The position numbers and the translations under genes were made by a program. Source: Planctomycetota bacterium (GTDB taxonomy: Bacteria; Planctomycetota; Planctomycetia; Gemmatales; Gemmataceae). From it: DNA of 64,000 nucleotides. Shown here piece by piece: positions 27,494 to 55,444 of this stretch (its first letter is position 1; the number at the start of each line of letters is the position of its first letter). The stretch lies in the NCBI GenBank assembly GCA_016191165.1, contig JACPPF010000132.1, forward strand, positions 1-64,000, in the 5' to 3' direction. The notes under the pieces are model-generated. The model had not been told where the DNA came from. It ran no database searches and saw only the letters and a list, made by a program, of their open reading frames with translations.

Positions 27494-28486
27494 ATGAGTG
27501 AAGTGCAAGTCGGCCAGGGCAATTTTCGTTATCGGGTGGACGAGGCCTGGGCGAAATTTCCCATTGACGGCGACGCGGGCGAAGCGGTCGGCGTCGCGTG
27601 TGATTCGAAGGATCGCGTCTATGTTTTCTTGCGCGGGCCGCGGCCAGTGCTGGTTTTCGAGCGCGATGGCACGCCAGTGTCCACCTGGGGCGAGGGAGTT
27701 TTCACGCGGGCTCATGGCATTACGATTGGCCCGGACGATACGGTATACTGCACCGACGACTTTGGGCACGCGGTTCGCGCCTTCTCCACTGCCGGCAAAC
27801 CGCGCCTGATGCTGGGCGATGGCAAGCCGTCCGACACCGGTGCAACCAGCATCGATTATCGCACGATCAAGCAGGCCGGGCCGCCGCTCAATTTTCCGTG
27901 CAATCTGGCTGTTGGACCAACGGGCGACCTGTTCGTCGCTGACGGCTATGGCAACGCGCGCGTCCACCGCTTCAGCGCGGACGGCGAGTTGCTTCAGTCG
28001 TGGGGCGAACCCGGCAGTGGGCCGGGACAGTTTCACGTCGTGCATGGGATCGCCGTGGATCAGGATGGAATTGTCTACGTCGCCGATCGCGAAAATCTTC
28101 GCATCCAACTTTTTACCGATGAGGGCGCCTACCTCGGCGCATGGACCGACATCGCACGACCGTGCCAGGTGTTCATTGATAATGCGGGCTGGGTCTACGT
28201 GGCCGAGCTTGGCTTTCGCGCGGGGCGCTGGCCAGGCACGGGCATGCATCAGCCGGGACAGACGGGAGGGCGCGTCAGCATTTTCGATCGCCAAGGGAAT
28301 TTGCAGATTCGCTGGGGCGGCGGCGAAAACCCATGCGCCGCCGGCGATTTCTTCGCGCCGCACGACATCTGCGTCGATTCCCACGGCGACATCTACGTTG
28401 CCGAAGTCGCCCTGTCCGGCGGCGGTCGCACCGGCGCGGTGCCGGGTTCATGTCATTCTCTGCAAAAATTCGTGCGCCTAGCATAA
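27494..28486 (+). CDS. NHL-repeat protein (peptidyl-alpha-hydroxyglycine alpha-amidating lyase-like)
   Basis: 330 residues with successive NHL blades: AVGVACDSKDRVYVFLRGP, PCNLAVGPTGDLFVADGYGNARVHRF, GIAVDQDGIVYVADRENLRIQLF and DICVDSHGDIYVAEVA, a six-bladed propeller. The family is often annotated as amidating lyase or SMP-30-like, but activity is unproven. No signal peptide. AGGAGG upstream of ATG 27494 fixes the start. It is divergent from the regulator at 25951-27357. Confidence 0.85.
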   Translation: MSEVQVGQGNFRYRVDEAWAKFPIDGDAGEAVGVACDSKDRVYVFLRGPRPVLVFERDGTPVSTWGEGVFTRAHGITIGPDDTVYCTDDFGHAVRAFSTAGKPRLMLGDGKPSDTGATSIDYRTIKQAGPPLNFPCNLAVGPTGDLFVADGYGNARVHRFSADGELLQSWGEPGSGPGQFHVVHGIAVDQDGIVYVADRENLRIQLFTDEGAYLGAWTDIARPCQVFIDNAGWVYVAELGFRAGRWPGTGMHQPGQTGGRVSIFDRQGNLQIRWGGGENPCAAGDFFAPHDICVDSHGDIYVAEVALSGGGRTGAVPGSCHSLQKFVRLA

Positions 28487-28510
28487 TTTGCGCATGCGCG
28501 AAATGACTAA

Positions 28511-28559
28511 CTAAGATAACACGGCATTACCTTATTAAGGTAATGCCGTGTTATCTTAG
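28511..28559. repeat. Perfect 49-bp palindrome
   Basis: A 24-nt arm beginning CTAAGATAACACGGCATTAC at 28511 is followed by one central T (28535) and the exact reverse complement to 28559. It lies 25 bp after the NHL gene and about 250 bp before the ATPase gene. It is AT-richer than the surroundings and has no U-run, so terminator function is not obvious. Confidence 0.9.
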
Positions 28560-28640
28560 CTGAAGCCTCGAGGTCATCGCGGGCTCAGTGAGATAACGCA
28601 GCGACGCCTTGATAAGGTCCATTGCGCCAAGTGCCGCACT

Positions 28641-28687
28641 TAAGATAGCCCGGTATTATCTTATTAAGGTAATGAAGTTTTACTTTA
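28641..28687. repeat. Degenerate second copy of the 49-bp palindrome
   Basis: TAAGATAGCCCGGTATTATC ... TTATTAAGG ... TTTACTTTA follows the layout of the element at 28511-28559, with the TTATTAAGG centre intact and arms diverged. Weaker relatives lie around 28587-28620 (GAGATAACGCAGCG ... GATAAGGT) and 28745-28765 (AGGTAAGACGGCTTTACCT), so four related sites fall between the NHL and ATPase genes. Confidence 0.65.
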
Positions 28688-28806
28688 GGTGCTTGCTTTC
28701 TTCCGGGTCCGAGCATAGACTTGAGTAAGACAGGTTTCTCATATTAGGTAAGACGGCTTTACCTCCATGCGGCGCCCCGGCCGCGTCTCTTTCAACGAAC
28801 ATTCTC

Positions 28807-30276
28807 ATGAAACCCTGGCGATTTTATGGCCGAAATGGACAGCTCGAAACGCTCGCGGCAATCCTGGGCCGCGGGCGCTGGTTTTTCGCGAAGGTCTCGG
28901 GCCGACGCCGCATCGGCAAGACCACGCTCATTCAACACGCCTTGCAGGCCGTGGGCTCCAAGCAGTCCGTTTTCTATGTCCAGATTCCTGATTCCGAGCC
29001 GGCCGGCGTCATCTCCGCGGTCAACGACGCCCTGGAAACCTTTTGCGTGCCGGTCGATCTCCATCCTCGGCCAACCGATGTGGCCCAACTCGTAAAAACG
29101 TTTGAAGCGATGGCCGAGGCGGGATACATCCTCGTGCTTGATGAGTTTCAGTATTTCAATCGCCGCGGTTACGAGGGCTTCTGTTCGTTGTTGCAGGGCG
29201 CTGTGGATCGCCTCGCCGCGAAGGCCGCACGCGTGAAGGGCGGCCTGATGGTGCTTGGCTCGATCTACACCGAAATGATGGCCCTGTTCGATGATCGTAC
29301 GGCGCCCTTGTACAATCGCGTCACCGATGACATCGAGCTGACCCACCTGGACATCGCGTCGGTGCTCGCGATCCTGCGCGATCACGCCGATGCCTCGCCC
29401 AGGCGGCTCTTGTTCCTGTGGAATCTCTTCGAAGGCGTACCCAAGTTCTACCGCGATTGCTACGAGCAAGAAGTCCTCGGGGCGGATCGGCCAGCACTCT
29501 TGCAACGGATTTTTTTCGGCAGCTCTTCGCCCTTGCGAACGGAAGCCGACAACTGGTTCCTGCGCGAGCTGCGCGGACGGTACGACGTGGTCTTGAAATA
29601 CGTCGCCCGCAACCCAGGCTGCATGCACCATGAACTCGTGCAGGCGATCCGCAGCGTCAACGGCAGTCCCGACACGCAGATCGGCGGCTACCTGCAGACG
29701 TTGATTGATAAATTCCGTCTTGTCGTTCGCAAGCTGCCCGTCTTCGCCCGGCCGGAAGCCAAAAAGGGCCGCTACTACGTGACCGACAACTTCCTTCGCT
29801 CCTGGCTGGCGGCCCTGGCCAATCCCGTGTCGGCCATCGCTTTCAGACCGGTCGCGCAACTGGTCCAAGAGGCCGACCAGAAGCTCGAAGTGGCCGAAGG
29901 CGGCGCGCTCGAAAAGCTGACCGGCCAACTCTACGAAGAACGCAGTCGCAGTGGGATCGGCGACTTCCCCTTGACCCAACGAATTCAAGGTTTTTGGGAC
30001 AAGAGCGGTACGGAGATCGATCTGGTGGCTGTCAACGAAGCCCAAAAAACCATCCGGTTTGGCTCCTGCAAGCGCGCACCGTCGCGTTTGCTGGCCGATG
30101 TCAACGATTTCAAGGGGCATGTCGAACGATTTTTACAGGCCAAGCCGAAGTACCGCGCCTGGAAGATACAATATGCGGGAATTGCTCCGGACCTGGATCG
30201 AGGCCAGCGCAAAATCCTTCGCCGCCACGATGTCATCGCTCAGGACCTGCGCGACCTTACCAAGAACCTGAAATGA
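28807..30276 (+). CDS. AAA+-type ATPase with DUF234-like nuclease-fold C terminus
   Basis: 489 residues. Walker A GRRRIGKTT (32-40) and Walker B YILVLDEFQ (Asp112-Glu113) mark the archaeal-ATPase (MNS/STAND-like) family that begins FYGRNxxLExL. A winged-helix-like middle (KYVARNPGCMHHELVQAI, IGGYLQTLIDKF, KGRYYVTDNFLRSWL) leads to a DUF234-type PD-(D/E)xK-like end: FWDKSGTEIDLVAV...IRFGSCK, with Asp in EID and Lys in SCK. Such proteins are common but unassigned; a role in mobile-element control or defence is possible. ATG 28807. A palindrome cluster precedes it. Confidence 0.8.
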   Translation: MKPWRFYGRNGQLETLAAILGRGRWFFAKVSGRRRIGKTTLIQHALQAVGSKQSVFYVQIPDSEPAGVISAVNDALETFCVPVDLHPRPTDVAQLVKTFEAMAEAGYILVLDEFQYFNRRGYEGFCSLLQGAVDRLAAKAARVKGGLMVLGSIYTEMMALFDDRTAPLYNRVTDDIELTHLDIASVLAILRDHADASPRRLLFLWNLFEGVPKFYRDCYEQEVLGADRPALLQRIFFGSSSPLRTEADNWFLRELRGRYDVVLKYVARNPGCMHHELVQAIRSVNGSPDTQIGGYLQTLIDKFRLVVRKLPVFARPEAKKGRYYVTDNFLRSWLAALANPVSAIAFRPVAQLVQEADQKLEVAEGGALEKLTGQLYEERSRSGIGDFPLTQRIQGFWDKSGTEIDLVAVNEAQKTIRFGSCKRAPSRLLADVNDFKGHVERFLQAKPKYRAWKIQYAGIAPDLDRGQRKILRRHDVIAQDLRDLTKNLK

Positions 30277-30291
30277 AGGGAAAGCCTCGCC

Positions 30292-54996: not shown

Positions 54997-55444
54997 CTCA
55001 ATTCCCCTTTCTCTGTATTCCGGCCCCGGACGGGCATTTGCACCCTGACTAACTTCCTCGTCTTGGGAGCTGATCGATGAGCAAATCGCTCGGAATCAGA
55101 CATCCTTTCGGCAGCCTGGCGATCCGCCTTGGCGGACCCATGGCTTTGCGTCACCGCCTCGCAGCGGTTTTGCCATTTCGAGGATCGAAGGGAGAATCAC
55201 TCGGGGGATTGTTCGCAAACCTCATTGTTCACTTGGTTTGCCGCGAACATCGCGTGATTCATTCGACACCAAAACCTAGGTTGCACAACCGGCACAGTCA
55301 AATGAATCAGCAAAAAAATCTGGGTTTTCCCAAACGCCGCGGCATCCCGAATGCTGAGCTGCGCTTCGGGAAAGAACCGGTTGCACGGTGGGGCCGACCT
55401 GGTATATTGGAGCTCTCACCAACCATCGCCTCGGGGGGAAGGTC
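54997..55444. other. 448-bp divergent intergenic region
   Basis: Lies between the Flp pilin genes (minus) and the DUF1549 gene (plus). It must hold both promoters. No gene, repeat or confident promoter was recognised. Confidence 0.5.

Follow-up and report, generated by a model that had tools for sequence, protein, structure and literature searches.

Within the 64,000-nt stretch of planctomycete DNA analysed here (the window), a gene for an NHL-repeat protein (27494-28486) is followed by a leader that carries an array of symmetric sequences and then by a forward-strand gene for a 489-residue ATPase (28807-30276). The protein consists of an AAA+ ATPase domain (residues 1-180, 28807-29346, forward strand; Walker A GRRRIGKT, Walker B LDEFQ), the Walker A and B core residues of which are invariant among 54 aligned homologues, a predicted winged-helix domain (residues 256-327, 29572-29787, forward strand), which is the candidate reader of the symmetric sequences, and a linker helix followed by a DUF234, PD-(D/E)XK-like domain (residues 349-485, 29851-30261, forward strand). 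Assignment of the gene to the DUF234 type, proposed in an earlier note made from the letters alone, is borne out by a PF03008 score of 25.7 bits against a cut-off of 22.5; ATPase_2 scores 29.4 bits, just under its own cut-off of 33.2. The match to the PADLOC model PDLC04985 spans the full length of the protein (residues 1-488 of 489; 696 bits, E = 7e-210), and all 54 of the 54 aligned homologues match the models of the putative single-gene defence candidate PDC-S27 (PDLC04985 and PDLC04984).

The predicted structure (mean pLDDT 88.9) runs from the AAA+ domain through a helical region and the winged helix to the PD-(D/E)XK-like domain. Foldseek ranked the Pyrococcus abyssi ATPase PABY2304 (PDB 2QEN; TM 0.66 on target) first, followed by ORC2/Cdc6, which are AAA+/winged-helix DNA binders, and, further down, by ORC subunits, Apaf-1, CED-4, and plant NLR structures. 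Residues E403, D405, and K422 of the nuclease-like domain are conserved; nearly all aligned rows shown carry SCK or TCK instead of the (D/E)xK catalytic motif, so that the ATPase may not cleave, and the activity of this domain may have been lost or rearranged. Clade-specific residues show no concentration in the winged helix and are uninformative as to the reader of the array. Elsewhere in the window, on the reverse strand (55106-55183), lies a c-di-GMP-I-GGC riboswitch aptamer that scores above the Rfam gathering score.

The array begins with a perfect 49-bp palindrome (operator pair 1, 28511-28559), the two 24-nt arms of which (28511-28534 and 28536-28559) are 100% complementary and separated by a single nucleotide, exactly as the earlier note had it. 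That note took the palindrome itself as the unit. In fact, it is not one element: it consists of two 23-bp dyads of the form TAAGRTAA-N7-TTAYCTTA, repeated at 24 bp from start to start, namely dyad 1a (TAAGATAACACGGCATTACCTTA, 28512-28534) and dyad 1b (TAAGGTAATGCCGTGTTATCTTA, 28536-28558), which are exact inverted copies of each other, centres included, and the 23-bp dyad is the element that is conserved. Three degenerate copies had also been listed. One of these, at 28641-28687, is clear and 80% identical to the palindrome; it comprises dyads 3a (TAAGATAGCCCGGTATTATCTTA, 28641-28663, 18.6 bits) and 3b (TAAGGTAATGAAGTTTTACTTTA, 28665-28687, 20.3 bits). Another, proximal to the gene (28721-28766), is good in one half: dyad 4b (TTAGGTAAGACGGCTTTACCTCC, 28744-28766, 22.1 bits) stops 40 nt short of the ATG, and the left dyad (28721-28743, 0.2 bits) is degenerate, at a position that matches the primary operator of the homologues. 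The remaining one is a marginal dyad (28589-28611, 5.7 bits), possibly the relic of an operator pair 2.

These scores derive from a weight matrix built on 36 N7 dyads from other loci and genomes only, with the window left out of training. Both dyads of the palindrome reach 28.0 bits with this cross-species matrix, and the top five sites of the 64-kb window (28.0, 28.0, 22.1, 20.3, and 18.6 bits) all fall within the leader, compared to 6.7 bits for the best site outside it. The sequence TAAGATAACACGGCATTA, allowing up to 3 mismatches, was found 3 times in the window against an expectation of 0.01, which excludes chance. Genome-wide, CTAAGATAACACGGC occurs without mismatch only as the two arms of the palindrome in 7,227,506 bases. 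Scans by pattern matching located the exact dyad pattern in the palindrome only, and one-mismatch sites at 28641 and 28665 alone; when as many as 3 mismatches are allowed, the genome holds 13 sites against 27 for a reversed control pattern, so that we claim no wider regulon. The search of this and related genomes that the earlier note proposed, covering 40 relatives, uncovered no unrelated copies of the repeat, and blastn detected no second copy of the 314-bp leader in either the own genome or these relatives.

Among the 17 tandem pairs compared, pair 1 of the window is the only one with an inverted identity of 23/23, the others ranging from 11 to 19. The contrast between one perfect and several eroded copies, from which the earlier note had suggested active maintenance or recent spread, holds to this extent; the gene-proximal pair, however, occupies the position of the primary operator of the homologues and is therefore more than an eroded version of pair 1. 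At all 9 of the 9 asymmetric positions of pair 3, one side is identical to pair 1, so that pair 3 may be derived from a symmetric copy resembling pair 1. The perfection of pair 1 may also have arisen through template switching that corrected a quasi-palindrome.

Dyads before homologous ATPase genes

We compared 63 homologous loci and scored 60 homologue upstream regions for dyads, with a threshold of at least 12/16. In 55 of the 60 homologues, which come from many phyla, a dyad closely precedes the start codon of the ATPase gene, compared to dyads in 101 of 2,696 control windows (3.7%) from the same loci; no recognisable dyad was present in the other 5, and the p-values attached to such counts overstate independence because the homologues share ancestry. 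Homologues fetched after the motif had been defined also have the dyad, both the 6 from loci L060, L130, and L133-L136 and WP_126148346.1, encoded by a plasmid of Synechococcus elongatus UTEX 3055. In the clade that includes the window, the operator is a tandem pair of 23-bp dyads with a 7-nt centre (N7) and a 24-bp period, the two dyads typically stopping 34 and 10 nt short of the start codon. In other clades, there is usually only one dyad, 22 bp long and with a centre of 6 nt (N6). The distance from the last dyad to the start is usually 10-20 nt, against 40 nt in the window.

The window departs from its relatives, most of which have one pair or one dyad beside the start codon, in that its stronger pairs are distal, 119-295 nt upstream, and its proximal pair is partly degenerate. 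Distal extra sites are found at other loci as well: two (L095 and L098) have sites about 78 nt apart, and two more (L122 and L120) have sites at -125 and -5/-3. Variant dyads of the TAAGATAC type precede 39%-identical homologues on Cupriavidus megaplasmids (L215, L160, and L216), where they lie near the gene and again 100-160 nt upstream; in L215, the distal dyad is a near-perfect 26-bp palindrome and the proximal one is weak. A MAG named Bdellovibrio (L075) has three tandem dyads with a period of about 24 bp, about 80 nt before the ATPase gene, the variant right halves of which (CATCTTG or CATCTTA, as in AAGGTG...CATCTTG) suggest an operator with shifted specificity. Among 23 distant DUF234 ATPases (about 25% identity), palindromes showed no clear general enrichment, and they occur at single loci (L138, L210, and L214). 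At L138 (genome G438), the palindrome GTAATATATATTACGGTAATTTATATTAC is less than 80 nt from the start and might be a different operator in this distant branch.

On a tree of 56 ATPases, the distinction between tandem N7 operators (L071 being counted as tandem N7) and single N6 operators requires one change. The N7 clade (support 100/99) includes, besides the Bdellovibrio-named MAG, one named proteobacterium (L078), whereas a planctomycete outside this clade (L080) has a single N6 operator; thus, with the caveat of MAG taxonomy, the host alone does not explain the layout. No partner or regulator gene is conserved around these loci, each neighbour family within 5 kb being shared by 3 loci at most.

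The array and the ATPase gene together make up a unit of about 1.8 kb (28487-30291, forward strand) that is absent from the orthologous site in four genomes of the same genus (G006, G002, G003, and G005). In each of these, the NHL and Ldh_2 genes adjoin, about 47-105 nt apart, and a search for ATPase homologues found none, so that array and gene were gained or lost together. The right side of the unit lacks a matching repeat. At the ATPase-less intergenic site, two of these genomes carry unrelated long hairpins (L163, about 1400-1490, and L162, about 1410-1480; G002:C81 and G006:C191), with arms of about 33 bp around AAGTCGCTG in L163; these are possibly REP-like elements or terminators. The distribution of the ATPase in the phylum is patchy: of 392 genomes sampled, 8, own genome included, have strong homologues over the full length. 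The Synechococcus plasmid homologue adjoins restriction-endonuclease and Abi-family genes. A phage origin was considered and rejected: no relative was found in IMG/VR, phage records yielded only three matches of 22-23%, and the exact left dyad was not found in viral contigs.

Predicted promoter overlap and alternative readings

In 23 of 51 loci, a TTG precedes the dyad by exactly 12 nt (against a background of about 1 per offset), a position that leaves a 17-nt spacer to a TAAARN hexamer, the predicted -10, inside the dyad. The dyad of the homologues thus covers the predicted -10 and predicted start site. The conserved TTGC box that precedes the dyad by 12 nt is missing from the window leader, and a sigma-70 scan of this leader found no promoter; the main weakness of the case at this locus is that its own promoter is not recognisable.

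The earlier note had offered three functions, a binding platform for the ATPase, a mobile miniature repeat, and a source of RNA hairpins. The first of these is the best supported, in the form of an operator of the ATPase's own gene, with the ATPase as its presumed binder. Judging by the comparisons above, the dyad cluster is very probably the transcriptional operator array of the downstream gene. The ATPase is also the simplest choice of reader, given that operator type follows the ATPase, that no neighbour is conserved, that array and gene were gained or lost jointly, and that the protein has a predicted winged helix. We put the probability that the PDC-S27 gene is autorepressed by the ATPase through these dyads at roughly two in three.

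Two-fold symmetric promoter sites of 22-23 bp are typical of dimeric regulators of the TetR or MarR type. Sites of this very kind lie at the predicted promoter of the homologues, and binding by the ATPase is presumed, so that the dyads could be operators of the ATPase gene that are bound by an unlinked regulator of host or plasmid, for instance, such a dimer. We consider this unlikely because the operator type tracks the ATPase tree across phyla, because no regulator gene is conserved nearby, and because good sites in the own genome are found only before the ATPase gene, which would leave a dedicated regulator with a single target.

A departure from the operator reading altogether would be that the dyads form a platform for DNA processing or assembly, such as an ORB-like or iteron-like origin or a site of loading or oligomerisation. 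Archaeal relatives of ORC2/Cdc6 bind inverted repeats at origins, and the closest folds of the ATPase include ORC2/Cdc6; moreover, the window has several upstream copies, and the clade of Cupriavidus plasmids has distal ones. However, the dyads stand at a fixed distance from the -35-like TTG and the start codon, and most homologues have only one or two of them, which makes the platform distinctly improbable.

The hairpin option, under which the palindromes would act as RNA in the leader (an attenuator, a processed small RNA, or a type III-like RNA antitoxin), draws on the unusually stable fold of the 320-nt window leader (z = -5.8), a fold that the 49-bp palindrome makes inevitable. At the fifth base, left half-sites carry a purine and right ones a pyrimidine, and the two sides combine freely (A-T 14, G-C 14, G-T 12, A-C 10; Fisher p = 0.41), A-C, a non-standard pair in RNA, being about as common as G-T. 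Such independent variation agrees with a dyad in DNA rather than a hairpin in RNA. Furthermore, the predicted transcription start of the homologues falls inside the dyad or beyond it, so that the transcript would hardly hold the whole hairpin, and neither an Rfam match in the cluster nor a terminator was found. An RNA hairpin as the function is accordingly rejected as very improbable, the bases being chosen regardless of pairing. Finally, that a mobile miniature repeat (MITE or REP-like) landed in the intergenic region is barely credible, even though the region was gained here or lost elsewhere and congeners have the empty site, because no dispersed copies were found in the own genome or the 40 relatives, homologous dyads recur at a constant place in front of a single gene and its homologues, and the unit has no terminal repeat on its right side.

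Possible self-repression by the ATPase

If the autorepression reading is correct, a two-fold symmetric protein would read the 23-bp dyad, and occupancy of the dyad would block transcription, since the homologue dyads cover the -10 hexamer and the presumed start site. The predicted winged helix of the ATPase may bind the dyads as a dimer or a higher oligomer; the bound ATPase would hold its own expression low, and its release could be coupled to ATP state or to infection. The extra upstream pairs of the window would represent strong distal sites added to a weaker proximal one. Such a combination would suit cooperative or looped repression, and the layout resembles that of auxiliary operators of high affinity which support a weaker one close to the promoter. 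A more daring version, in which the ATPase is a one-gene defence protein docked on its own promoter, where it would be repressor and safely parked effector in one, and an infection cue frees it, with simultaneous derepression and arming as the consequence, appears to us rather doubtful. What the computation establishes is the dyads, their conservation and gene-specific location, the agreement of operator type with the ATPase tree, and the joint presence of array and gene. The ATPase as the binder, the repressive effect of binding, and any link to defence are, each of them, what we infer.

PDC-S27 is a putative candidate identified by guilt-by-embedding and common in archaea, and PDCs are experimentally unvalidated (PMC12988326). 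The window ATPase agrees with PDC-S27 in its full-length match and in its patchy distribution, the latter being described for PDCs (PMC12988326). As to the operator, the open-access literature that we searched describes neither such a site nor self-regulation for PDC-S27 or DUF234 ATPases. A related arrangement is that of BrxR, a WYL-domain repressor of phage defence islands that binds inverted DNA repeats (PMC9122601). In both cases, a protein on inverted DNA repeats would repress defence genes, here putative ones, but BrxR is the product of a separate WYL regulator gene, whereas here the regulator would be the effector candidate itself, by means of its predicted winged helix. Likewise, in toxin-antitoxin operons under autorepression and in restriction-modification systems controlled by RptR (PMC12255303), as in the proposed circuit, a defence gene that may do harm is under feedback control by way of sites on its own promoter; those systems rely on an antitoxin or a dedicated repressor, whereas here one protein would be both effector and repressor. 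In structure, the closest comparisons are archaeal Orc1/Cdc6 and PABY2304 (2QEN), the top Foldseek matches at 14-17% identity, of which ORC2/Cdc6 share the AAA+ plus winged-helix layout. Unlike these proteins, the window ATPase adds the DUF234 PD-(D/E)XK-like domain, and its sites lie on a promoter rather than an origin.

PDC-S27 is reportedly abundant among archaea as well as bacteria. The operator travels with the gene, and its layout changes with the protein rather than with the host, which points to sequence-specific recognition of DNA by the ATPase. The conserved operator offers an assay handle, in shift or reporter experiments, for the ligand and the trigger of the ATPase. If autorepression proves true, a single-gene defence candidate would be its own repressor, unlike the BrxR or RptR systems.
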